This document shows positions 2,650-39,073 of a stretch of 39,503 nt of DNA, one piece after another. The notes below the pieces were generated by a model. It searched no databases, was not told the origin of the DNA, and saw nothing but the letters and a program-made list of their open reading frames with translations. Numbering within the stretch: position 1 is the stretch's first letter; every line of letters starts with the position of its first letter. The DNA is from a virus, in the IMG/VR virus record IMGVR_UViG_3300025151_000106, positions 1 to 39,503 of that record; one strand, 5' to 3'. Made by a program: the position numbers and the translations under genes.

Positions 2650-3007
2650 ATTAGTAATAGATGCGGATACCTCTCATGGGCCGTTCACAACCATCACTCG
2701 CGAGTCAGATCATTACGTTTGCGATAATGCGATTTATTATTTCAGCGTTATCGGTGAAGGTACTGATGGCGAGGACATAGTGGATTGGGAGGGTGCGTTA
2801 CCAGAACCAGAAGTGCCACAATATCTTGTTGATACTCAGAGGGCAAAAAGAGATTTATTGCTTGCTGATAGCGATTGGACTCAAATGGCAGACTCTGCTT
2901 TGACTGACGAAAAGAAAACAGAATGGGCGACTTATCGTCAAACATTACGCGATGTTCCTTCTCAGGATGGTTTTCCCCGCGATATAACTTGGCCTAGTGA
3001 ACCTTGA
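2642..3007 (+). CDS. Phage tail assembly chaperone-like protein (second copy)
   Basis: 121 aa from the ATG at 2642, which has AGAGG 8 nt upstream; an in-frame TTG at 2636 is less likely. The C-terminus (KRDLLLADSDW...WATYRQTLRDVPSQDGFP...WPSEP) is the same chaperone domain as in the gene at 83-568. The N-terminal half (LKLVIDADTSHGPFTTITRESDHYVCDN) differs, so only the C-terminal domain is shared. It overlaps the end of the fibre gene and its stop overlaps the next start (TTGA). Probably the dedicated chaperone of the fibre encoded just before it. Confidence 0.75.
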   Translation: MLKLVIDADTSHGPFTTITRESDHYVCDNAIYYFSVIGEGTDGEDIVDWEGALPEPEVPQYLVDTQRAKRDLLLADSDWTQMADSALTDEKKTEWATYRQTLRDVPSQDGFPRDITWPSEP

Positions 3008-3216
3008 TACATGTTTTTGTTTTAATTTTACTTATAGCAGGTGAAGAAGAGTCTAGTACTTGTGATACAGCTATGTGCTTCTATGACGTAAACAGGTGTA
3101 ATTATTTTGCACAACAATTGCATTACAGAGGAACACCAAGCACATCTAGACCTATCACAGCGTATTGTAAACCTATACTAGTTGATCCAACTCAAGACGG
3201 GATAAGGATCTACTAA
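3004..3216 (+). CDS. Small cysteine-containing exported protein
   Basis: 70 aa, starting with TTG that overlaps the previous stop as TTGA; no in-frame ATG is available. Residues 3-13 (HVFVLILLIAG) form a short hydrophobic signal-like segment, followed by a small domain with four cysteines (C20, C25, C32, C55). Two disulphides in the periplasm would fit. I do not recognise the family. It sits in the small membrane-protein group before the holin, so a role in the envelope, lysis or virion is possible. Its stop overlaps the next ATG as TAATG, which supports translation. Confidence 0.55.
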   Translation: MIHVFVLILLIAGEEESSTCDTAMCFYDVNRCNYFAQQLHYRGTPSTSRPITAYCKPILVDPTQDGIRIY

Positions 3217-11099: not shown

Positions 11100-14000
11100 A
11101 TGCCTATCAAAAGAAAAACTCTTAGGACTAGCCCAGAGATTATTCAGGCTAACAGAGACAGTTACGACTCTGTTGATTTTAGTGATTACACAATAAGTCA
11201 GAAGCCTAAACTAAATCCTAATTTACAGTATTTAGAAAACAATGAAGACTTCCAAGAAGATATGGAACTGTATATGCAGTACATTGCTTCTCAGGATGAT
11301 AACTTTATAGATCAAATACTGTCAGGGACTTTGGCTACTGATGATTGGAAAGAGTTTATGCGCGATGAAGATTGGCGCATTACTTCTGTTATAGATAGAA
11401 ATATGGCACTAAAAGATGCCCCAGAAGATGTAAAGCAAGCTTACAAGCGAGTAAGAGAAAACTGGGAACGTGCTGATGTAGAAGGCTATGGAGAATGGGT
11501 TGAAGCTATAACAGACATGGGGCTAGATGCCGTAGGAGATCCTGTAAATCTAGCAATGCTTTTAGCCATTCCTTTTACTGGAGGAGGTTCGGCAGCTACT
11601 GCGGCTCTTGCAAAGGAAGGAGCCAAGAAATCAGCTATGCAAACAATAAAGCGTATGGCTGTTTCTCCTACTACCACTGGTGTTGTAGAAGGTGGTGTAT
11701 GGGCAGGAGTAGATAATTACAATCGTCAAAACATAGAAATTGCTACAGGAATGCGTAATGAGTTTTCTAACAGCGATTTTGCAATGGCTTCAGGTATCGG
11801 TAGTTTAGCCGGTGGGTTTATTGGTAAGGCGTTTGGTTACTTTGGTAACTCTAAAAATGCAGCAAAAGTAGAGCGTGATATTGTCCCTGACAACAAAGCT
11901 TTAGATAGACAAGCAGATAATTTAGCTGCTAATGATGACGAGATAGTAGATAACATTATAGAAGGTAATCTTCCTCAGTCTCAAGAAGTGGTAGATGCAG
12001 TATCTGAAGTTGTAAGTAGATTACCTTTAAGGTCGGCTACGTTTCAAAATGGTGTGCTAAATGAAACCAGAGGGTTTCCTCTAGATTTTGATATAGATGA
12101 CTTTGCTGACGTAGATGAAATTGCTAAAGACTTGGCTGAGAAGTTAGGTGGTGGAGACTACACGGCAGAAGAAATTGCAGATACTATACGACAATCTTTA
12201 GTAGCCGCCAAGCGAGGCAATGTATCTGGAGATGAGTTATCAGACTTTATAACTGGTAGGATTACCAAAGGGTTGGACACTCCTCCAGAACAACTTGCTC
12301 CTACTACACCTGACCCTTCTCCGGGTCAAGAAGTAGCAAGACCTATACAAAATAAACTGCTGTTTAAAATAGGGCGAATTGCGAACAAACTAAACAGCAC
12401 TGTATTAGCAGGTAAAGCTACAGATCTTATCAGCCCCTATGCCAAGTATTCTGCTACTGCGGCAAGACTACAAAGACTTCTTAGGTATGATTCATCTTTA
12501 AAGCTGACAGGCTCTTTAACGCCTGATGAAAAACTAGGCAGAGATTACTTTGAAACCTTGAAAGAAAACTACGGTACTTTTGTTACCGATTTCAAAAAAG
12601 CGTATGAGCCTATTGCATTAGGGCCTAAAGGTGATACCCGTCAAGATATGGACGATATGATTGTAGCTGCACTCAGAGGTGGAGCCTTACCTGATAATGC
12701 GCCTGACGCTGTAAAAAATATTGTTCCTGTACTTAGAAAGCTGTTTGACGATAGAGCCGAAGCTTTGTTTATGGAAGAGGTTCCTGCTAACTATGTTCCA
12801 AGGATGTGGAAACGTAGTGCTATTGAGCAAAATCAATTTGAATTCAAAAAGCTTTTAGAAAACGAAGGGTATGCGCCTGAAGAAGCCGATAGTATTTTAC
12901 AAAGTATGTTAAGCAAAACAGAAAACTCGGCGGTCATTGATTCTGCGGGAACAGGAGATACTGTCTTCTTAATGCCCAGAGTGCTAGACAAAATAGCTGA
13001 TGATAATGTGTATGCTAATTTCTTAGAAAATGATTTAAATAAAATTGTACATGAATATGGTATGCAGTCTGCAAGACGTATCTCAAAGTTAAATGTTCTC
13101 GGTGTAAGAAATAAAAATGACTTTGAAAAAATTTGGATTCCTCAGATTCAAAAAGAACTAAGAGAGGCGGGATTAGAAGTAGGAGATCCTCTCATAGGCA
13201 AAGCTGCTAACGATATAAGTGCTGTTTATTCTTCTATGACGGGTGAAGGTATTCAGCGGTACGGCAGCACAGTACAAACTGCTGCTGATTCCTACACAAT
13301 GCTGACCCGAATGGCTACGTTACCTCTTGCTCCTCTTTCAAGTTTAACAGAAATATTTTTAAATATATCTAAAGCAGGATTCCGTAATAGCTTTAAAGGA
13401 CTTGCTGTAGCTATGAATGAGGGCTTTACCACTATGTCAACCAAGAGCAAAAACCTTTTGGCTGACGCAGGACTAACTGAACCTGAGATATGGCGAGAAA
13501 TGCAAGAGCTTGGTATCGCTATGGATCAAGCAGCCGGTGATGTTGCTGATAGGTTAGGTGGTGAAACTATTGCTAATGACAAAATTAGAACTTTAAACAA
13601 TGCTTTTTTTAGAGCTAACATGCTAGATCAATGGACAAAGTTTGTTCAGATGACTTCTTACATTACTGGTAAGAACATGATCTCAGACAATATAGCTGAC
13701 ATAGCGGCAGCTAGAGGAAGTAGAGACAGTCGTAGAATCTTGCGTAAAAAGAAAGAGCTACGTGAGCTTGGTATTGATATAGATCAGGCAATGGATTGGT
13801 TTGATGGAGGCATGAAAGCTGACGATGCCTTTAATAAAGAAATTCAAAGAGGTGCGGGTAGATATACTAATGAAGTTATTCTAAACCCTGAATCTGCCTC
13901 AGGCTTAAAGCCTTTGATGCACTCTAATCCTAAAACATCAATATTGTTTCAGTTGATGGGTTATCCTGCTGCGTTTACAAATACTATTCTTAAAAATGCA

Positions 14001-16658
14001 GCTCGTAAAATGATAGAAGATCCAAGAGGGAATGTTCCCCATACTTTAGCTGCCGGTTTAATTATGACAGAGACAGCTAGATTCACTAACTGGGCGAGAA
14101 GTCGGGGACGTAGTGAAGAAGAGGGAGAGAACCCATATGCAGCAGCTATCATGCGTTGGGGCGGTGGTGGCGTATATTTAGATATGTTCCGCAGAGCAGA
14201 GTTTGCGGCTAAAGATAGTCCTGCTCTTGCTCCTATATTGGGTATATCTGGGCCATTGTCTCAGGACATCTTTGCACTTGCTAGATATCAAGGCCCTGTA
14301 GAATTTGCAGCGCGGAAGTCTCCGGGCTTTGGGGCTTTTGAGTTTGTGTTCGGCAGAGAATTTAGGGACAACTACACCAGTGCTGCTAGAAGCATGGATA
14401 AAGTTATTAACGATATGTTTAGCGGCAAAGAGCCTGATCGTCTTAAATTTAAAAAAGGTGGTGAGGTGTATGATGTGCCTAACGCATCAGAAGAACCTGA
14501 TGAGCGTGTAGATCGTATAACAGGACTTCCTTATGATCAGCAAGCCGGAGGTGCTTTTGTAGACGAAGAAGAGCGCATAGGGTTTGCTTTAGGTACTGTT
14601 GTTACTAAGTATGCAAGGTCTGCCCTTAGTGATGCGGTAGGTAAAATTGCAAACAAAGGAGAGAACATTCCGTTTAATAGATTAATGAAGCGACTTGAGG
14701 TTGAGGGCGTAAGACCTGATGAGATTCAAGCTTCTCGACTAATAGATCTTGTAGATGAAAAGGACATAGTTACTACAAGATCAGGTAATAAGGCTGTTAC
14801 TCCAGAAGGTTTGAGAAACGCAGAAGCCCGAAGGACTGATGTGTTTAAACAAGAAGAAAGTACGTATCTAGAAGCTCAAGAAGAAATAACTGAAGTGGCT
14901 GAAGATTTAGAGCTAGAAGTAGAAGCGTCAATTGCTGAAAGCGAGGAGCTAGACAGGGCAATAGACGAAGAATTTGGAGATGATTATTTTGTAGAAGATT
15001 TAGATACATTTGATCCAGAGGCAGAAGATCCTACATATACGTACACGGGTAGAATGTTAGATACGGCTTTAGATCCTGAAAAGTCTTTAAGAGAAAGAAC
15101 GGATGCAATAAGTGAAGTTGAAAGAGTATTAAGAAAAAGCCCCGCAGAACTTAAACAAATGTACAGTGAGGTTGTTCCAGAAGATGCTGAGTTAAGCACG
15201 TATAGAATTAATTATTTTTCTGATCCCAGAATTACTAGACCCACTTGGTCTGGACATTGGGAAAAAGGCAGAGATTATCCTATGGATTTAGATAATTTTA
15301 CCTACTGGACTAGAGGGGACGTTGCGTCTGGAGATAAAACTATAACTGGGGGAGAAGCTTCCAGAGTTTATGAGATTCAGTCAGACAGTAGAGTTGAATT
15401 AGATCCTGAAAAATTAAGTCCCTATCAAAAATTACTAGAAGAATTTGATGAGCTAAATGACAAGATAGGCGAAATAGAAGATTCTATTTTGGATGTAGAT
15501 TCGAAATTAGAGGAGTTTAATATTTACCGTTCTTCTACTGAAGATCGTTATGTTATTCCTCCTGACTCTGAAGAAAAGGTACAAACATTAATCAAAAGAA
15601 ATAATGAGTTAATGGACGAGTTAACTTCTACTAGAAAACAACAGAGGGGCTTAGAACCAAAACTAAAAGATGCTAGTAAAAATATGACAGCATCAGAAGT
15701 TAAAAAAGAGCGAGATGAAATTTTCTATGGTGGAACTAAAGTCCCTATAAATGTCTGGAAGAATGCAATTCATAACGAAATTATTAGAGCTAAAGAAAAT
15801 GGTCTAGATGAAATACAATTTCTTATTGACGATAAACTTGTAGAAAGGAATGGGCAAAGAGTTACTGAATTTATGATTAGATCTCCAGAAATTCAGAAAG
15901 CCTATCAAACTATAGTAGCTCCTTTAGTTATTAAGACTGCTAAAAAGATAGGAGCTAGGGCGCAACGCAAAGGAAAGTATATAGCTTTTGCATTACCCGC
16001 ATCGTTTACGCTACCCCTTTATGCTCAAGAGGAAAAAGACTTATCTGAAGTAGCAACAGACATATCTCTAGGCATGGAGATAGATGAAGCTCTTGTTATT
16101 AATAGAGAAAGCTTTTCAGAAGGTGGGTTACTTGAAAGGGCTATTAAGTTTGCACTAGGAAGAGGTGCTAAAGCTTTTGGTTTTGGCGCGGATCAACAAC
16201 GTCAGCATGAGAAAGAAGTAGTAGCTCTTGTTAATGAAGCAGCCGACAAAGGTTTTATCCCTGAGCGATCCCGTATACCTACAGATGAAGCAGGGTTTGG
16301 AAGGTTCAGTGGCGCAGATGAAGAAGTCTTCAATGCTTTTAATCATGCCTACCTAGTTTACAAGCATGGTTCTAAGCTTAAAGATCCTTTGCTTCAGGGT
16401 AAAGAGTATCTACAGATGTTGTATTACCCTAACCCAGACACTGAAAGAGTTGATCAACACAACAATGCTTTTGGGTCTAACTTGAGGGATATGGCTACAG
16501 ATGATGCAGATGCAAAGCAAAAGATAGTTTTGGGCTACTACAATACTCAAAGGAAACTGGCAGAAGGAAAACCGCTTGTGTACGGAGAAGATCTTATATT
16601 TAATGTAAATGATCTAGAGAATGTAGAGCCTCGTAGTTTTAGATTTAGACCGAGGTAG
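11100..16658 (+). CDS. Giant gp16-like internal virion / polyvalent protein
   Basis: 1852 aa. Residues about 130-250 (DPVNLAMLLAIPFTGGG and Gly-rich hydrophobic stretches) and 930-1110 (ILFQLMGYPAAF, ETARFTNWARSRG) resemble internal virion proteins of marine T7-like phages. Near 1119 there is KKGGEVYDVPNA and PDERVDRITGLPYDQQAG, a motif I have seen in other marine phage virion proteins. Residues about 1380-1640 contain VYEIQSDS, IIRAKENGLDEIQFLIDD and IVAPLVIKTAKKIGARAQRK, the order seen in the EIQSD domain of phage polyvalent proteins. Near 1742-1800, FNAFNHAYLVYKHGS with VDQHNNAFGSNLRD resembles DUF6973. These last two matches are tentative. The protein is probably ejected into the host with the DNA. 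AGGGG precedes the ATG. Confidence 0.7.
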   Translation: MPIKRKTLRTSPEIIQANRDSYDSVDFSDYTISQKPKLNPNLQYLENNEDFQEDMELYMQYIASQDDNFIDQILSGTLATDDWKEFMRDEDWRITSVIDRNMALKDAPEDVKQAYKRVRENWERADVEGYGEWVEAITDMGLDAVGDPVNLAMLLAIPFTGGGSAATAALAKEGAKKSAMQTIKRMAVSPTTTGVVEGGVWAGVDNYNRQNIEIATGMRNEFSNSDFAMASGIGSLAGGFIGKAFGYFGNSKNAAKVERDIVPDNKALDRQADNLAANDDEIVDNIIEGNLPQSQEVVDAVSEVVSRLPLRSATFQNGVLNETRGFPLDFDIDDFADVDEIAKDLAEKLGGGDYTAEEIADTIRQSLVAAKRGNVSGDELSDFITGRITKGLDTPPEQLAPTTPDPSPGQEVARPIQNKLLFKIGRIANKLNSTVLAGKATDLISPYAKYSATAARLQRLLRYDSSLKLTGSLTPDEKLGRDYFETLKENYGTFVTDFKKAYEPIALGPKGDTRQDMDDMIVAALRGGALPDNAPDAVKNIVPVLRKLFDDRAEALFMEEVPANYVPRMWKRSAIEQNQFEFKKLLENEGYAPEEADSILQSMLSKTENSAVIDSAGTGDTVFLMPRVLDKIADDNVYANFLENDLNKIVHEYGMQSARRISKLNVLGVRNKNDFEKIWIPQIQKELREAGLEVGDPLIGKAANDISAVYSSMTGEGIQRYGSTVQTAADSYTMLTRMATLPLAPLSSLTEIFLNISKAGFRNSFKGLAVAMNEGFTTMSTKSKNLLADAGLTEPEIWREMQELGIAMDQAAGDVADRLGGETIANDKIRTLNNAFFRANMLDQWTKFVQMTSYITGKNMISDNIADIAAARGSRDSRRILRKKKELRELGIDIDQAMDWFDGGMKADDAFNKEIQRGAGRYTNEVILNPESASGLKPLMHSNPKTSILFQLMGYPAAFTNTILKNAARKMIEDPRGNVPHTLAAGLIMTETARFTNWARSRGRSEEEGENPYAAAIMRWGGGGVYLDMFRRAEFAAKDSPALAPILGISGPLSQDIFALARYQGPVEFAARKSPGFGAFEFVFGREFRDNYTSAARSMDKVINDMFSGKEPDRLKFKKGGEVYDVPNASEEPDERVDRITGLPYDQQAGGAFVDEEERIGFALGTVVTKYARSALSDAVGKIANKGENIPFNRLMKRLEVEGVRPDEIQASRLIDLVDEKDIVTTRSGNKAVTPEGLRNAEARRTDVFKQEESTYLEAQEEITEVAEDLELEVEASIAESEELDRAIDEEFGDDYFVEDLDTFDPEAEDPTYTYTGRMLDTALDPEKSLRERTDAISEVERVLRKSPAELKQMYSEVVPEDAELSTYRINYFSDPRITRPTWSGHWEKGRDYPMDLDNFTYWTRGDVASGDKTITGGEASRVYEIQSDSRVELDPEKLSPYQKLLEEFDELNDKIGEIEDSILDVDSKLEEFNIYRSSTEDRYVIPPDSEEKVQTLIKRNNELMDELTSTRKQQRGLEPKLKDASKNMTASEVKKERDEIFYGGTKVPINVWKNAIHNEIIRAKENGLDEIQFLIDDKLVERNGQRVTEFMIRSPEIQKAYQTIVAPLVIKTAKKIGARAQRKGKYIAFALPASFTLPLYAQEEKDLSEVATDISLGMEIDEALVINRESFSEGGLLERAIKFALGRGAKAFGFGADQQRQHEKEVVALVNEAADKGFIPERSRIPTDEAGFGRFSGADEEVFNAFNHAYLVYKHGSKLKDPLLQGKEYLQMLYYPNPDTERVDQHNNAFGSNLRDMATDDADAKQKIVLGYYNTQRKLAEGKPLVYGEDLIFNVNDLENVEPRSFRFRPR

Positions 16659-16660
16659 CC

Positions 16661-16831
16661 ATGCACCGTTTAATTCTGATTGCTCTTTTACTTTCTTCTT
16701 GCTCAACAGCAACCTACGACTTCCCCATAGAGTTTCCTAACAGGATGCCTCAGGGATTGTTTGAAAACAATCTTAGAGACTGTAGAGCGCAGCCCCAATG
16801 CTCAGCGGATCAATTATTTGATAGGTGGTGA
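16661..16831 (+). CDS. Small lipoprotein
   Basis: 56 aa. MHRLILIALLLSSCSTATYD is a textbook lipoprotein signal: one Arg, an eight-residue hydrophobic core and a lipobox LSSC with Cys14 as the lipidated residue. Ser at +2 predicts sorting to the outer membrane. The mature part (about 43 aa) has two more Cys (C41, C47). GAGG lies 6 nt before the ATG. It is two bases after the giant protein and one base before the cytochrome/copper protein. Size and lipobox fit an outer spanin, but no matching inner spanin is adjacent, and it could instead serve the secreted enzyme that follows. Confidence 0.75.
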   Translation: MHRLILIALLLSSCSTATYDFPIEFPNRMPQGLFENNLRDCRAQPQCSADQLFDRW

Positions 16832-16832
16832 T

Positions 16833-18134
16833 ATGAGAAAAACTTTACTAGCTGCTTGTATAGGACTAGCTACAACGGCACAAGCCGATGATACATATGT
16901 TGACACTGTAGCAAGTATTATAAATAACAACTGTGTTGTTTGTCACAGAGAGGGCGGTATAGGCCCTATGTCTTTTGAGACTTATGAGCAGGTCAGACCT
17001 TGGTCACCTCTCATCTCTTACAAAGTAGCTAACAGAGAGATGCCACCCTATGCCTATGACCAACATATAGGCATTCAAAACCTTGAAGGGGATTGGAGAC
17101 TATCACAGGATCAGATAGATTCTGTTGTTAACTGGGCAAACTCTGGATCTCCTTATGGTGATACTGATACAGTTGTTCAGCCTCCAAGCCTTCCAAGTTT
17201 AGACTCTTGGAACTTTGAGCCTGAGTTTGGTGCGCCTGATCTTATTGTTCCCTCATCACCCTATGACATTCCTGCCAATGGTAATGACCTTTGGAGTAAA
17301 GAGTTCGTAGATCCTCAACTTGCAGAATCTCGCTGCATCAAGGCTGTACAAGTTAAGCCAAAAGGTGATGCAGCCGCTGTAGTCCATCACGCTAATTCAG
17401 ATATATACATGTATGATGAAGAAGGTGAGCTGCAACAATATGGTCAGTTGACTGAGTATGCAATGGGAAAATGGGGAGAGGTGATGCCCCAAGGAGTATG
17501 CCGCACGTTTCCGGCCAACTCTCTAGTCCGATGGGATATCCACATGTTCCCCGGCGGCGTAGGAGCTACAGCCGAAGGAGAGATGATTGAAGATAATGTG
17601 GTTGAAATTGGTCTTTGGTTTCATGATGAGAACTATGAGGAGGTCAACGATGTGTACCGTCAAGACCTCAGGCTATATCCTCTACGCGAAGGGTACGAGA
17701 ACGGACACCTAATTATCCCTCCAAATGGCTACGCTATGACACAGGGCTTTCACAGCTTTGATCACCCTGTACGCATTGATAGCTTTCAGCCTCACGGACA
17801 CCTCCGTATGAATGCTGCGTCACTAGAGATATTTAATCCTCTTACAGGACGCACCAAGTCAATAAGTCAGATCTCTAACTGGAGTGCTACATGGCATCAT
17901 AGTCATATATATGATCCCTCAGAAGCTCCTGTGTTGGCTGTGGGAGAGGTTCTGGTAATCAAGCAGTGGTATGACAACACCTCTGACAATCCCAACAACC
18001 CTGACCCAGATCAGTGGGTATATGGTGGCAGCAGGACAGGAGATGAAATGTCTCATGCTTGGATTGCTGTTACTCACCTAGACGATCAGGGTTATCAACA
18101 AATAATGGAAGAAAGATTTAATGGGGCTGATTGA
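16833..18134 (+). CDS. Secreted cytochrome c / PHM-like copper monooxygenase fusion
   Basis: 433 aa from the ATG at 16833 (AGGTGG upstream); an upstream TTG would spoil the signal peptide. Residues 1-18 are a Sec signal ending AQA. Residues 19-110 are a c-type cytochrome domain: CVVCH at 34-38 binds heme, and Met70 in REMPPY is the likely distal ligand. Residues 120-430 resemble peptidylglycine alpha-hydroxylating monooxygenase: His185-His186 and His237 match the first copper site; His321, His323 (PHGHLRM) and Met406 (GDEMSHAW) match the second. NPNNPDP before the Met is typical of bacterial cytochrome/PHM fusions. Ligands look complete, so an active periplasmic or virion-borne copper oxidase is plausible; the substrate is unknown. 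The gene lies between virion genes and the endolysin and overlaps the latter by 14 nt, so it should be expressed late. Confidence 0.8.
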   Translation: MRKTLLAACIGLATTAQADDTYVDTVASIINNNCVVCHREGGIGPMSFETYEQVRPWSPLISYKVANREMPPYAYDQHIGIQNLEGDWRLSQDQIDSVVNWANSGSPYGDTDTVVQPPSLPSLDSWNFEPEFGAPDLIVPSSPYDIPANGNDLWSKEFVDPQLAESRCIKAVQVKPKGDAAAVVHHANSDIYMYDEEGELQQYGQLTEYAMGKWGEVMPQGVCRTFPANSLVRWDIHMFPGGVGATAEGEMIEDNVVEIGLWFHDENYEEVNDVYRQDLRLYPLREGYENGHLIIPPNGYAMTQGFHSFDHPVRIDSFQPHGHLRMNAASLEIFNPLTGRTKSISQISNWSATWHHSHIYDPSEAPVLAVGEVLVIKQWYDNTSDNPNNPDPDQWVYGGSRTGDEMSHAWIAVTHLDDQGYQQIMEERFNGAD

Positions 18135-18534
18135 TCTACTTATAAAACATGAAGGCTTGAAGCTTGAGCCTTATCGTTGTACTTCAGATAAACTAACTAT
18201 AGGCGTAGGAAGGAATCTAGAAGACTGCGGCATCACTGAAGATGAGGCTATGTACCTGCTCAAGAATGATATAGAAAAATTTCATGAAGAACTGACTGAG
18301 AGATTTTATTTCTACAGGTATCTAGATGGGGCTAGGAAGGATGCCATGCTGAATATGGCATTCAATATGGGAGTCCCAAGGCTTGCTAACTTTGTCAATG
18401 CTCTAGACTTTATGTCTCAGAGGAAGTATGACGAAGCAGCAGATGAGTTTCTGGACTCGCGGTGGGCCAAGCAGGTAGGTAACAGGGCCATAGAAGTTGC
18501 CCAGATGATACGTACTAACAAATACCCCGACTAA
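18121..18534 (+). CDS. Endolysin, GH24 T4-type lysozyme
   Basis: 137 aa. The N-terminus IKHEGLKLEPYRCTSDKLTI then GVGRN carries the GH24 catalytic pattern E-8aa-(D/C)-5aa-T with Glu11, Cys20 and Thr26. Cys in place of Asp at the second position is a known variant. The rest (AMLNMAFNMG, FVNALDFM, DSRWAKQVGNRA) follows the T4 lysozyme C-terminal helical lobe. It cleaves the glycan strands of peptidoglycan. No signal peptide or SAR helix is present, so it needs the holin at 3936-4343 for release. It is the last rightward gene; its TAA overlaps the stop of the convergent leftward gene. Confidence 0.9.
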   Translation: MGLIDLLIKHEGLKLEPYRCTSDKLTIGVGRNLEDCGITEDEAMYLLKNDIEKFHEELTERFYFYRYLDGARKDAMLNMAFNMGVPRLANFVNALDFMSQRKYDEAADEFLDSRWAKQVGNRAIEVAQMIRTNKYPD

Positions 18535-18755
18535 ACTATAGTTGAAGTAACTGCCTGTATTTCTTTTTCTAGAGATATAGAAGCATCTTTAAACCTTTTA
18601 TTCATGAACTTATGAATAGTTTGGATTAGAGATGCTTCATATTTATTCTCAAATATATTTTCTATCTCTTCAAAAGGCAGCTCAGCAAACTCACAGTAGA
18701 TGTTACCGTCAGTCCCTAGCTGAACTGCCATAGAGACAATATTCCCTGTCTTCAC
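18531..18755 (-). CDS. Hypothetical protein, last gene of the early operon
   Basis: 74 aa, starting with GTG that overlaps the nrdB stop (GTGA). Sequence features: MAVQLGTDGNIYCEFAEL followed by an acidic helical C-terminal half (FEEIENIFENKYEASLIQTI). Not recognised. It is the final leftward gene and ends in a 4-nt overlap with the endolysin stop. Coupling to nrdB suggests expression together with RNR, but nothing in the sequence shows a link in function. Confidence 0.6.
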   Translation of the reverse strand: MKTGNIVSMAVQLGTDGNIYCEFAELPFEEIENIFENKYEASLIQTIHKFMNKRFKDASISLEKEIQAVTSTIV

Positions 18756-19714
18756 GAGAAAGTAATTCCTTCCTGATTTCCCCGAAGTCCGGCCTTCATG
18801 TAGGCGGTTGCCCTGCCTTCAAAGAAGTTCTGGTGTTCAACACCCAGTACATCATCCAACCAATCTAGCGGGTTATCTTTTACGTTGTAATTAGGCTTCA
18901 AGCCAAGCTGAAGAAGTCTACGATCTGCAATGTATTCAACATAGTCTGACATCTGTTTACGTGTTAGACCGGGGATATCTCCCATCTCAAATACTAGATC
19001 AAGAAACTTCTGTTCTAGATTTACCATGTCCCTGCATGACTGATATATTTCTTTCTTGAACTCATCAGTCCATATATCAATGTTCTCTTGTATAAACTCT
19101 CGAAAGAGCTTGGTCATAGCTTCAACATGAAGTGACTCGTCCTTGATGCTGTAGCTTACAATCTGCCCCATGCCCTTCATCTTGCCAAAGCGCGGGAAGT
19201 TAAGAAGGATTACAAAGCTTGAGAACAACTGTAGTCCCTCTGTAAAGGCACTGTAGACTGCTAGGTTCTTAGCGATAGACTTCTTGTCTGACTTAGAGAT
19301 CTTCAGATCGTTGATGTATTCATGCTTGTCTGACATCTCTTCATATTCTGCAAAGGCTTTGTACTCAACCTCTGGCATACCTACAGTATCTAGCAGCAGA
19401 CTGTAAGCGTGTTGATGTATGGACTCCATGTTGGCAAAAGAACCCATCATCATACGGGCCTCAGGCTTCTTGAAGATACGCATATATCTATCTATATACC
19501 CTGCACCTACATCTACATCTGACTGAGTAAAGAGCCTAAAGATCTGGGTCAGTAGATTCTTTTCTTGGTCTGACATTTCTTGCCAATCTTTTACATCATT
19601 ATGCAGCGGAACATCTTCAGGGAACCAGTGCATCTGATTCTGTTGGAAGTAGTAATCAAACATCCAAGGGTGATCAAAGGGTTTGTAGTAGTCGCGTGTT
19701 GATAATAGGCTCAC
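18752..19714 (-). CDS. nrdB: Ribonucleotide reductase class Ia small subunit
   Basis: 320 aa starting with GTG, chosen because AAGGAG lies 6 nt upstream and the GTGA overlaps the preceding stop. It makes the diiron-tyrosyl radical used by NrdA. Ligand set in order: Asp66 (TQSDVDV), Glu97 and His100 (ESIHQHAY), Glu159 (FTEGLQLF), Glu193 and His196 (DESLHVEAM); the radical Tyr is Tyr104. Length is slightly short of the 340-390 aa usual for the family. Reduces ribonucleotides to deoxyribonucleotides with NrdA, feeding phage DNA synthesis. Two small genes separate it from nrdA in the same operon. Confidence 0.95.
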   Translation of the reverse strand: MSLLSTRDYYKPFDHPWMFDYYFQQNQMHWFPEDVPLHNDVKDWQEMSDQEKNLLTQIFRLFTQSDVDVGAGYIDRYMRIFKKPEARMMMGSFANMESIHQHAYSLLLDTVGMPEVEYKAFAEYEEMSDKHEYINDLKISKSDKKSIAKNLAVYSAFTEGLQLFSSFVILLNFPRFGKMKGMGQIVSYSIKDESLHVEAMTKLFREFIQENIDIWTDEFKKEIYQSCRDMVNLEQKFLDLVFEMGDIPGLTRKQMSDYVEYIADRRLLQLGLKPNYNVKDNPLDWLDDVLGVEHQNFFEGRATAYMKAGLRGNQEGITFS

Positions 19715-20087: not shown

Positions 20088-21995
20088 CTATCCTTCACAG
20101 CTCAAACACTCCCCGTCAGAGAGGTTAATTCTAGGAATCTTTATGTTTACATTCTCAGCAGATCTTGCTGCGTCTGACCTGAGATAGTACATAGATTTCA
20201 GATTCTTAGCACCTGCCCAGTGTACATCATTGACATACTGTAGATAGGCATCGTGTGTTTCCTGATCCGCAGTAGATTTAGGAGGTACAAAGAACAGATT
20301 AACGCTCTGACTTTGGCAGATGTATTTCTGCCTGTTGGTTGCATGTTCAATAACCCATATCTGGTTGATCTCAGGAGCTGTTTTGTACACCTCCTTAACC
20401 TCTTCAGACAGCTCTTCTATATGCTGCACAGAACCATCATGGGCTGCAATATCTTTCCATACCTTTTCGCGTTGCTCTTTGGTAGGAAATACAGCCTTGA
20501 GTTCTTTCTCTAAGAATTTGTTCTTGACTCTGAACGAGCCTGAAAGAGTTTTATGGGTAAACGTGTTGGCCCTGAAAGGCTCAATGGATGGGCTAGTAAC
20601 GCCACAGATGATAGAGCTAGAGGCGTTGGGAGCTACAGCCATAAGGTGAGCATTCCTTCTACCACTGCCTAGCATATCAGGAGCTTCACCTCGCTCTTCA
20701 GCTAGTATACGTGAAGCAGCAGCAGCCCGATCTTTAATTAGAGAGAAAGATTTATGGTTGAAAGAAGCAGCATACATACTCTCAAAAGGTATGCCCTTAG
20801 ACTGTAGATAGCTATGAAAGCCCATAGCTCCTAGACCCAAAGATCTTTCACGATAAGCTGAGTAAGCAGCCTTGGAATACCCAATCTTTACAGGGTCGCA
20901 ACAGCCCTGAAACTCTTGAAAGCTCAGAGGCTTGTTTATCATATACTCATTATTCGTAGGCCATTCACCTACAGAATGATTTATAAAGTGTTGGATCACA
21001 TTATCTAGCATAGTAATCAGGTCAGGTATAAATGTATCTACCGTAGACCAATCATCAAAGTATTCTAAATTAACACTAGACAAACAACAGACAGCAGTCC
21101 GTTCTTCATTAGTAGCCAGTGTTATCTCAGAACACAAGTTGCTTTGCTTGATATCAAGTCCTAAAAGCTTCTGCTCTTCTGGTAGAGATTCATTGCATCT
21201 ATCTATGTTTACTATGTAAGGCTCACCTGTTTCTGCCCTAGTAGATATAAGCTGCCACCAGAGATCCCTAGCAGATACAGTCTTAACGGCTGTATTAGTT
21301 TTAGGATCTATAAGTCTCCAATCGTCATCACGCCTAACCGACTCCAGAAAAGCATCGGTAATATTGACACCATTATGTAAGTTTAAACATTTCCTGTTTA
21401 TATCGCCGCCTGTAGTCTTACGCATTGATATAAACTCTTCAATCTCTGGGTGAGAGATATCCATATAGGCAGCGTAGCTTCCTCTGCGGGTAACACCCTG
21501 ATTGAAAGCTAACATCTGACTATCAACTACGTGCATGAATGGGATAGAACCAGTAGATTTACTGCCGTTAGCAGTATCCACGCCGTTACTACGGATATCA
21601 CCCCAATATCCACCAATGCCTCCACCTCCACTAGCGAGCCATACGTTCTCATCATAGTGAGCAGATAGACCATGACGGGAATCAGGAACATAATTAAGAA
21701 AGCAACTGATAGGAAGGCCACGGCTTGTACCCCCGTTGCTAAGGATAGGAGTGCTAAACATAAACCAAAGTAGGCTACTATAGTCATAAAGCCGTTGTGC
21801 CAAAGCGTAGTCAGTAGTTTCATTATAAGTTGCTCCAAATATAGCTGCTCTTGCGAAAGCTTCTTGAGCATGATCTTCATCAGCCCAGAAGTATCTGTCT
21901 TTTAAAGTAGCGATTGCAAAATCGCCAAGCAGAGACTCTCTGGAATAATCTATCTTTATTCCTTTGTAGTCTTGTACGCCAATTTTAGTTGTCAT
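20088..21995 (-). CDS. nrdA: Ribonucleotide reductase class Ia large subunit
   Basis: 635 aa. Catalytic residues are all visible: Cys98 (PISCFLNYV), the NLCSE motif with Asn286, Cys288 and Glu290, the partner Cys at 303/304 (AVCCLSS), the radical-path Tyr603-Tyr604 (KSMYYLR) and the C-terminal redox pair CLSC (630-633). It is about 125 residues shorter than E. coli NrdA because no N-terminal ATP-cone is seen, so dATP feedback at that site should be absent, which is common in phage enzymes. With NrdB it supplies dNTPs. No intein or frameshift. Starts 2 nt after the preceding gene. Confidence 0.95.
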   Translation of the reverse strand: MTTKIGVQDYKGIKIDYSRESLLGDFAIATLKDRYFWADEDHAQEAFARAAIFGATYNETTDYALAQRLYDYSSLLWFMFSTPILSNGGTSRGLPISCFLNYVPDSRHGLSAHYDENVWLASGGGGIGGYWGDIRSNGVDTANGSKSTGSIPFMHVVDSQMLAFNQGVTRRGSYAAYMDISHPEIEEFISMRKTTGGDINRKCLNLHNGVNITDAFLESVRRDDDWRLIDPKTNTAVKTVSARDLWWQLISTRAETGEPYIVNIDRCNESLPEEQKLLGLDIKQSNLCSEITLATNEERTAVCCLSSVNLEYFDDWSTVDTFIPDLITMLDNVIQHFINHSVGEWPTNNEYMINKPLSFQEFQGCCDPVKIGYSKAAYSAYRERSLGLGAMGFHSYLQSKGIPFESMYAASFNHKSFSLIKDRAAAASRILAEERGEAPDMLGSGRRNAHLMAVAPNASSSIICGVTSPSIEPFRANTFTHKTLSGSFRVKNKFLEKELKAVFPTKEQREKVWKDIAAHDGSVQHIEELSEEVKEVYKTAPEINQIWVIEHATNRQKYICQSQSVNLFFVPPKSTADQETHDAYLQYVNDVHWAGAKNLKSMYYLRSDAARSAENVNIKIPRINLSDGECLSCEG

Positions 21996-37202: not shown

Positions 37203-37422
37203 CAGCACAATACCTTTTGGATATAAATTATCTGAAGATGAAAAGACTCTAGAACCTGTAGAGCAGCAACTAGAATCTTTAGATAAAATAAAAGAATTGG
37301 TATCTTCAGACATGATGTCACTAAGAGAGGGTGCTGAGTGGTTAACTCACATGACAGGTAGAAGTATTAGTCATGTTGGCTTAAAGAATATTATTTATGG
37401 AAGATTGGGAGATAAATCCTGA
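37189..37422 (+). CDS. Small conserved protein between terminase genes
   Basis: 77 aa from the ATG at 37189, 14 nt inside the small terminase. PFGYKLSEDEKTLEPVEQQL then LREGAEWLTHMTGRSISHVG resembles the start of a serine-recombinase recombinase domain (PFGY...E...), without catalytic domain, and is common beside marine phage terminases. Likely a helix-turn-helix DNA-binding protein, perhaps part of the packaging complex. Its end overlaps the large terminase by 26 nt. Confidence 0.7.
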   Translation: MRRTSSTIPFGYKLSEDEKTLEPVEQQLESLDKIKELVSSDMMSLREGAEWLTHMTGRSISHVGLKNIIYGRLGDKS

Positions 37423-39073
37423 GAACTACCTCACAGACGAGGAGGGTAATTTCGTTCTAAAGAAGGACGGAACTCCAAGACGTAAAGGTGGTAGACCTAA
37501 GGGTTCAAAGGGTAGAGGCTATAACTACCATTCAGAAACGAAAGCAAAGATACAGGCGCGGAGATCTGTACGCAAAAAAGAAAAAGAAACAGAGCGTACA
37601 CGACTTAAACTCTCCCAACAACGAGAAAAACTAAAAGCCTCTAAAGAAACCCTAACAAAGCTAGATAATAATAATAAAAATAAAGTAATTACTGATGATG
37701 TTCTGTCTAAGGTTCCAAAAGCCTTACGGGAAGAAGCTAACGACAATGTTATCTTCAAACCTAACTCAGGGCCACAGACAGACTTCTTAGCAGCTCCTGA
37801 GAGGGACGTATTGTACGGTGGAGCAGCAGGGGGTGGTAAGTCCTATGCCATGCTCATAGATCCTCTCAGATACGCTCACAGGCCCTCTCATAGGGCTTTA
37901 ATACTTAGACGGTCTATGCCAGAGCTACGAGAGCTTATAGACAAGTCTAGAGAGCTGTATCCAAGAGCTTTCCCCGGTTGTAAGTATCGGGAGGTAGAAA
38001 AGCTTTGGAACTTTCCGTCAGGGGCTAAAGTAGAATTTGGATTCTTGGAAAGAGATGCAGATGTATATCGCTACCAAGGACAAGCGTACAGTTGGATAGG
38101 GTTTGATGAGATTACTCATCTACCCACAGAGTTTGGTTGGAACTATCTGGCTTCACGACTGCGTACTACAGATCCAGATATTGTACCTTATATGCGGTGT
38201 ACCGCTAACCCCGGTGGTGTTGGAGCGCATTGGGTAAAGAAAAGATATATATTACCATCACCGCCCAACGAATCTTTTAGGGGTGATGACGGTCTAACAA
38301 GAAAGTTTATTCCGGCTAGACTAGATGACAATCCATATCTAGCTGAAGATGGACGTTACGAGGAGATGCTCAAAGCTCTCCCTGATATCCAACGAAAACA
38401 ATTACTAGAAGGTAATTGGGAAATAGCAGAGGGTGCTGCATTCACAGAGTTTGATATAGCAGCCCACGTAGTCATACCATTTGAGATCCCAATAGGATGG
38501 GAGCGAATAAAAGGTATTGACTATGGATATGCTTCTGAGAGTGCCTGTGTCTGGGGGTGTGTTGATCCAACAGACGGTACTTTGATTATATATAGAGAAT
38601 TATACCGTAAAGGACTTACGGGCGAAGATCTTGGACATCTTATTGCAGAGATGGAAGTTCAAGATCCTTTTGCTGTACCCGGCGTTTTAGATACAGCAGC
38701 TTGGGCTAAGACAGGTTCTACCGGCCCTACAGTTGGAGAAGCCCTTATGAGAATAGGGCATAAGCTAAGGAGAGCTGATAAGAACCGCATACAAGGGAAA
38801 ATACAAATTCACGAATACTTGAAGTTACAGCAAAGCGGTAGGCCCCGATTGCAAATATTTAATACTTGCCCTAACCTGATACGCGAACTACAAAGTATTC
38901 CTCTTGATCGCTCAAACCCAGAGGATGTTGATACACACGCCTCTGATCACGCATATGATGCACTTAGGTATCTGATTATGTCCAGACCTAAGATTGCTGA
39001 TCCTTTATCTAGAATAAGGGATATGCACAGAGCGCAAGCATTTACCCCGTTGGATTCGGAGTTTGGGTACTAA
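37397..39073 (+). CDS. Terminase large subunit
   Basis: 558 aa. ATPase: Walker A GGAAGGGKS (141-149), Walker B WIGFDE (233-238), coupling motif NPGG (271-274). RNase-H-like nuclease: Asp375 (KGIDYGYAS), Asp432 (VLDTAAW), Asp517 (HASDHAYDAL). It cuts concatemers and pumps DNA into the prohead. An extra N-terminal region of about 110 residues, Lys/Arg-rich with GGRPKGSKGRG at 31-41 (AT-hook-like), precedes the ATPase. Confidence 0.93.
   Translation: MEDWEINPENYLTDEEGNFVLKKDGTPRRKGGRPKGSKGRGYNYHSETKAKIQARRSVRKKEKETERTRLKLSQQREKLKASKETLTKLDNNNKNKVITDDVLSKVPKALREEANDNVIFKPNSGPQTDFLAAPERDVLYGGAAGGGKSYAMLIDPLRYAHRPSHRALILRRSMPELRELIDKSRELYPRAFPGCKYREVEKLWNFPSGAKVEFGFLERDADVYRYQGQAYSWIGFDEITHLPTEFGWNYLASRLRTTDPDIVPYMRCTANPGGVGAHWVKKRYILPSPPNESFRGDDGLTRKFIPARLDDNPYLAEDGRYEEMLKALPDIQRKQLLEGNWEIAEGAAFTEFDIAAHVVIPFEIPIGWERIKGIDYGYASESACVWGCVDPTDGTLIIYRELYRKGLTGEDLGHLIAEMEVQDPFAVPGVLDTAAWAKTGSTGPTVGEALMRIGHKLRRADKNRIQGKIQIHEYLKLQQSGRPRLQIFNTCPNLIRELQSIPLDRSNPEDVDTHASDHAYDALRYLIMSRPKIADPLSRIRDMHRAQAFTPLDSEFGY

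Follow-up and report, generated by a model that had tools for sequence, protein, structure and literature searches.

What is a protein that resembles an exported, heme-carrying copper monooxygenase doing in a phage genome? The question is raised by gene A, at 16833..18134 (+ strand) of a linear IMG/VR virus record of 39.5 kb, which was analysed at its full length and is called the window here. A preliminary description had read A as a cytochrome c fused to a PHM-like copper monooxygenase. The bacterial cytochrome c-PHM architecture, the fold of PHM and dopamine beta-hydroxylase (DBH), phage auxiliary metabolic genes (AMGs) and phage copper monooxygenase genes are all already known.

Ligands and predicted fold of the A protein

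The A reading frame begins with an ATG directly preceded by AGGTGG, has no internal stops and encodes 433 amino acids, assigned as a cytochrome c-PHM-like copper monooxygenase from the ORF, its ligands, their conservation and the predicted structure. Read by eye, the N-terminus is Sec-like, as the preliminary description had held, with a predicted signal peptide at residues 1-18 (16833..16886; MRKTLLAACIGLATTAQA, the cut falling between AQA and DD). The heme c site C34-V-V-C37-H38 (16932..16946) and M70 in an MPP motif (17040..17042), the likely distal heme ligand, give the CxxCH and distal methionine of a class I cytochrome c. The predicted CuH ligands are H185-H186 (17385..17390) and H237 (17541..17543), and the predicted CuM ligands are H321-G-H323 (17793..17801) and the methionine M406 in a DEM motif (18048..18050), all on the + strand; the residues for a three-histidine CuH site and a CuM site of two histidines and a methionine thus appear to be present. 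Each of these ten ligands was found at the residue number first proposed for it, and all ten were invariant across 61 homologs (66-96% identity). They were also among the 42 invariant columns of an alignment of A with a second phage-borne family, B (~26% identity). Five extra histidines (H355, H356, H358, H408 and H415) were invariant in A and absent from B.

Pfam searches with A gave only cytochrome c matches below the cut-off. Pfam cytochrome c scored 17.3 bits on window A, which is below its cut-off of 21.3, and matched 61 of the 61 A family members (best 1.4e-5). Neither the window protein nor the family matched Pfam Cu2_monooxygen or Cu2_monoox_C, and searches of PHROGs, NCBIfam and PDB sequences with A returned no monooxygenase; weak PDB sequence matches to SMC3 and RhoB were set aside as chance. 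As Pfam finds no copper monooxygenase, what supports the PHM assignment is the predicted structure together with the conserved motifs; we call A PHM-like on the strength of its fold and ligands and place it outside the curated Pfam family.

Two AlphaFold2 models of A were built without templates, the second from the A and B alignment (pLDDT 74.7 for the first; pLDDT 84.7 and pTM 0.82 for the second). In Foldseek, human DBH and PHM ranked top for the first model (2e-10), and for the second DBH (4zel, E 9e-15) and PHM entries (~1e-12) came ahead of everything else, with TM-scores that were modest, the best being 0.63 by target length. Nothing credible matched the model of A in a viral structure library. 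The predictions support a PHM-type two-domain beta-sandwich fold, and the proposed cytochrome c-PHM fusion is supported by ligand conservation and predicted structure together.

The window phage and the neighbours of A

The large virion-type protein, lipoprotein and lysozyme named earlier as neighbours of A are all there. A protein of 1852 amino acids (11100..16658, + strand), which its size and position mark as probably of internal virion type, ends shortly before lipoprotein C and A; a family search with it gave no convincing match. Lipoprotein C (16661..16831, + strand) has 56 amino acids, a lipobox LSSC and a CR(x4)C(x4)LF motif. On the other side, the start of a phage lysozyme, the endolysin (18121..18534, + strand), overlaps the A stop by 14 bases, and this overlap makes late co-transcription of A with the endolysin plausible in the window lineage. 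Further along are two markers of phage context, the small (18752..19714) and large (20088..21995) subunits of ribonucleotide reductase (RNR), both on the - strand, and a terminase large subunit (37397..39073, + strand) that is 65-69% identical to those of Pelagibacter phages HTVC103P/104P/115P.

For its terminase, RNR, primase and polymerase, the window has matches in HTVC115P/104P/103P and more distant ones in HMO-2011, by which it is classed as an HMO-2011/HTVC115P-like podophage. As the related HTVC115P has 54.8 kb, the window is probably ~72% of a ~54-kb genome. The nearest cultured relatives infect SAR11, and it is from homology only that we infer a host for the window phage; a tRNA search of the 39.5-kb window for a host hint found none.

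Occurrence of A among viruses

The preliminary description knew of no other phage with this fusion. A is no one-off: 232 IMG/VR stretches that encode it, in several phage types, came out of a scan of viral contigs, and the best 80 of the 232 were examined in detail. In about 30 other viral contigs, the lysozyme-RNR neighbourhood of A was the same as in the window. In T4-like contigs, A lies beside tail tube/uvsY-like genes (L036), beside clamp loader/polymerase genes (L056) or in a region with portal and SbcC-like nuclease genes (L043), and in a 340-kb contig (L072) it lies with tail sheath and virion proteins. The tested gene identities in these other phage types are based on PHROGs matches, and those of uvsY, clamp loader and tail tube are ones that we presume from their N-termini. 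Sixteen further virus records each held one A, or one A and one B, and neither A nor B had a match in 50,697 phage records, isolate phages included. With its neighbourhood repeated in independent contigs and phage genes close by, A is truly encoded by phages.

At L072:5519-9376, just upstream of its A and B, the 340-kb jumbo-phage contig also carries a CsgG-like curli secretion gene (PF03783, E 1e-45), followed by genes for curli-subunit-like secreted repeat proteins.

A is presence/absence cargo. Of 80 contigs picked out by a similar RNR small subunit, 14 had A, another 32 extend at least 3 kb further without it, and 34 are too short to judge. A close relative, L172 (RNR beta 94% identical), has a clean empty site, in which the large protein runs straight into the lysozyme with neither A nor lipoprotein C between them. 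Where A is present it is strongly constrained, with dN/dS of 0.04-0.09 in nine comparisons, like phage lysozyme, RNR and polymerase, though between more distant sequences the synonymous sites approach saturation. The earlier view that the intact ligands speak for use rather than decay is thus backed by purifying selection.

Enzyme B, a small cytochrome c and lipoprotein C

Genes for further redox proteins often accompany A. B, a cytochrome c-monooxygenase ~26% identical to it, lies downstream of A in 35 of the 80 phage contigs (for example L049:11283-12521, L025:6179-7441 and L072:11256-12482). Phage B looks exported and keeps every heme, CuH and CuM ligand. PF03712 (copper monooxygenase C-terminal) was weakly matched, below its cut-off, by 19 of 22 B members (best E 0.0013), one of which scored 16.4 bits where 23 would be required; PHM was not matched by B profiles searched against the PDB. 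Most phage B proteins are without the redoxin domain of the bacterial B proteins examined. Three contigs have a longer B, perhaps with a redoxin domain, as two overlapping ORFs (L027 from 6223 on; L031:5220-6867; L034:11611-13897), and since the split is alike in these related contigs it suggests gene fission, not sequencing error.

In eight loci (L027, L028, L031, L034, L064-L066 and L069) a stand-alone monoheme c-type cytochrome follows A, usually ahead of B (for example L064:11272-11640, L031:4916-5230 and L066:11575-11961), and those tested exceed the Pfam cut-off.

Lipoprotein C adjoins A or the A-B pair in 41 of the 80 viral A loci. Its family (56-72 amino acids) has an invariant lipobox cysteine and a CR(x4)C(x4)L motif, matched no known family and was not found near bacterial A. 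T4-like phages also have it in comparable positions where A is lacking (L268, L270, L277 and L281, near 3000-3180), for which reason we dropped the idea that C is an obligate partner of A. Fifty-five viral loci extend beyond A by more than 1.5 kb in each direction; C only was present in 26 of them, B only in 24, both in four and neither in one, a descriptive tally of rows that are related to each other.

Bacterial origin

The earlier statement that this fusion occurs in marine bacteria holds, the same architecture being found in gammaproteobacterial MAGs, many of them labelled Pseudohongiella or Pseudomonadales, whose closest copies are at most 80% identical to A. In 16 such genomes (G001-G016) there were 14-39 members of the cytochrome c-PHM superfamily each, many in tandem arrays. 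Viral A is nested among these gammaproteobacterial paralogs: in a tree of 150 proteins, a strongly supported clade of 22 viral sequences that includes the window adjoins a bacterial paralog group. By this phylogeny, phage A is host-derived, an old acquisition from bacteria of the Pseudohongiella type that resemble its presumed hosts.

The free quick tree placed viral A in two clades and one further row. Constraining all viral A to one clade improved the log-likelihood by 67 units (p-AU 0.909), which removes the need to postulate a number of separate captures. One capture followed by spread among phages is therefore the better-fitting history, short of proof.

Gammaproteobacteria have a conserved gene cluster whose first A paralog is the nearest bacterial sister of phage A. 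These sister paralogs mostly follow a conserved secreted protein of ~317 amino acids and lie beside a redoxin-cytochrome-PHM protein, with an MFS transporter and a cupin also present at many of the loci; other bacterial A paralogs are near genes for a GMC oxidoreductase and gluconate-2-dehydrogenase subunit 3. The redoxin-cytochrome c-PHM proteins beside bacterial A (L134:1880-3574 and relatives) have lost the CuM HxH and have RxN instead, and are therefore perhaps non-catalytic partners of A. The missing HxH pair also led us to reject this neighbour as the source of phage B.

Possible roles of A during infection

We favour, as rather more probable than its competitors taken together, the reading of A as an auxiliary metabolic gene that would keep or boost a periplasmic oxidation of the host during infection. 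Phage pmoC/amoC, which have been proposed to help host oxidation in infection (PMC7674155), are an analogous case. As we infer it, the course of events (export, metallation, the cytochrome as reductant, hydroxylation and timing) would run as follows. A would be exported by Sec, the host maturation system would attach its heme c, and two coppers would be loaded in the periplasm, after which A would hydroxylate a small substrate at CuM with O2. Ascorbate is the electron donor of the animal enzymes; in A, the electrons would come from the fused cytochrome c domain instead, and in some phages from an extra phage cytochrome c. The separate cytochrome c next to A supports such a donor, and the presence in phages of the second enzyme B, a stand-alone cytochrome c or both points to a cytochrome-fed periplasmic monooxygenase. 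With host genes switched off, phage A would most likely stand in for the paralog of the host or boost it, and the oxidation would be kept going until lysis for carbon, energy or redox balance.

Other roles have to be weighed against this one. One idea, possible but unlikely, is that of a mobile, virus-specific redox cassette (A, B, cytochrome c and often C) common to marine phages that are not related: a self-contained periplasmic oxygenase whose viral function, such as oxidation of an envelope or signalling molecule, would go further than mimicry of host metabolism. Unlikely too is an action on the envelope of the infected cell, in which a lipid, glycan, surface protein or signal molecule would be altered to block superinfection or aid lysis. 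The overlap with the lysozyme start and the position after lipoprotein C in the window lineage speak for it, as does the frequency of C near A in other phages, but A lies away from lysis genes in T4-like phages, C occurs without A in many phages, and the closest bacterial relatives, near transporters and elsewhere dehydrogenases, look metabolic. We also doubt, a shade more strongly, that A is kept for electron transfer or for O2 or copper handling, as an oxidase or scavenger and not a hydroxylase. The extra invariant histidines found in A and not B would suit such a role, and altered-CuM members do exist, since the bacterial paralog adjoining A has lost its HxH pair; every CuH and CuM ligand is nevertheless kept in phage A and B.

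Two further readings carry far less weight. The preliminary description had suggested inclusion in the virion as one alternative, and in podophages the placement of A right after the gene for a giant virion-type protein would agree with packaging, or with ejection alongside internal proteins to act at the start of infection. Neither virion delivery nor a tie to lysis is supported, and packaging or ejection we judge very improbable, given the Sec-like signal and the need for periplasmic heme attachment, the varying gene position across phage types, with unrelated neighbours in T4-like phages (tail tube/uvsY, clamp loader, nuclease/portal), and the clean absence of A from a close relative, which marks it as accessory. 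Hardly credible at all is that A is a host contaminant, a misassembly or decaying cargo. Its family is bacterial in origin, but shared synteny in many independent assemblies contradicts this, viral A clusters apart from bacterial genes, and the gene is under purifying selection and free of stops.

Comparison with known systems

Several known systems come close to A, none of them matching it in full. It shares with PHM and DBH its predicted fold and the HH...H and HxH...M ligand pattern, and differs from them in its low identity (11-16%), its lack of a Pfam match, its N-terminal cytochrome c and its reductant, probably that cytochrome rather than ascorbate. The paralogs of marine Gammaproteobacteria (Pseudohongiella, SAR86- and OM182-labelled MAGs) have the same architecture at up to 80% identity, but the phage copies form their own group and number one per record, where a bacterial genome has 14-39 superfamily members. 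HMO-2011-type and HTVC115P-like podophages share the terminase, polymerase, primase and RNR genes of the window, whereas HTVC115P has no match for A. Among the main texts of the open-access literature we found no earlier report of a PHM-type enzyme in phages, and none is named in the AMG section of a study of HMO-2011-type phages.

The carriers of A are relatives of an abundant marine phage group. Functions carried by phages are often rate-limiting, and A points to an important, uncharacterised periplasmic oxidation in Pseudohongiella-type bacteria; the compact, strongly conserved phage proteins offer a handle for finding the substrate of the bacterial family. The closest parallel in phages is pmoC/amoC, likewise a host-derived, phage-borne piece of copper monooxygenase (PMC7674155), although of an unrelated protein family, A being a whole enzyme that is sometimes accompanied by a cytochrome c and B. 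A would extend the short list of phage copper monooxygenases (pmoC, amoC) by a PHM-type, heme-fused member.
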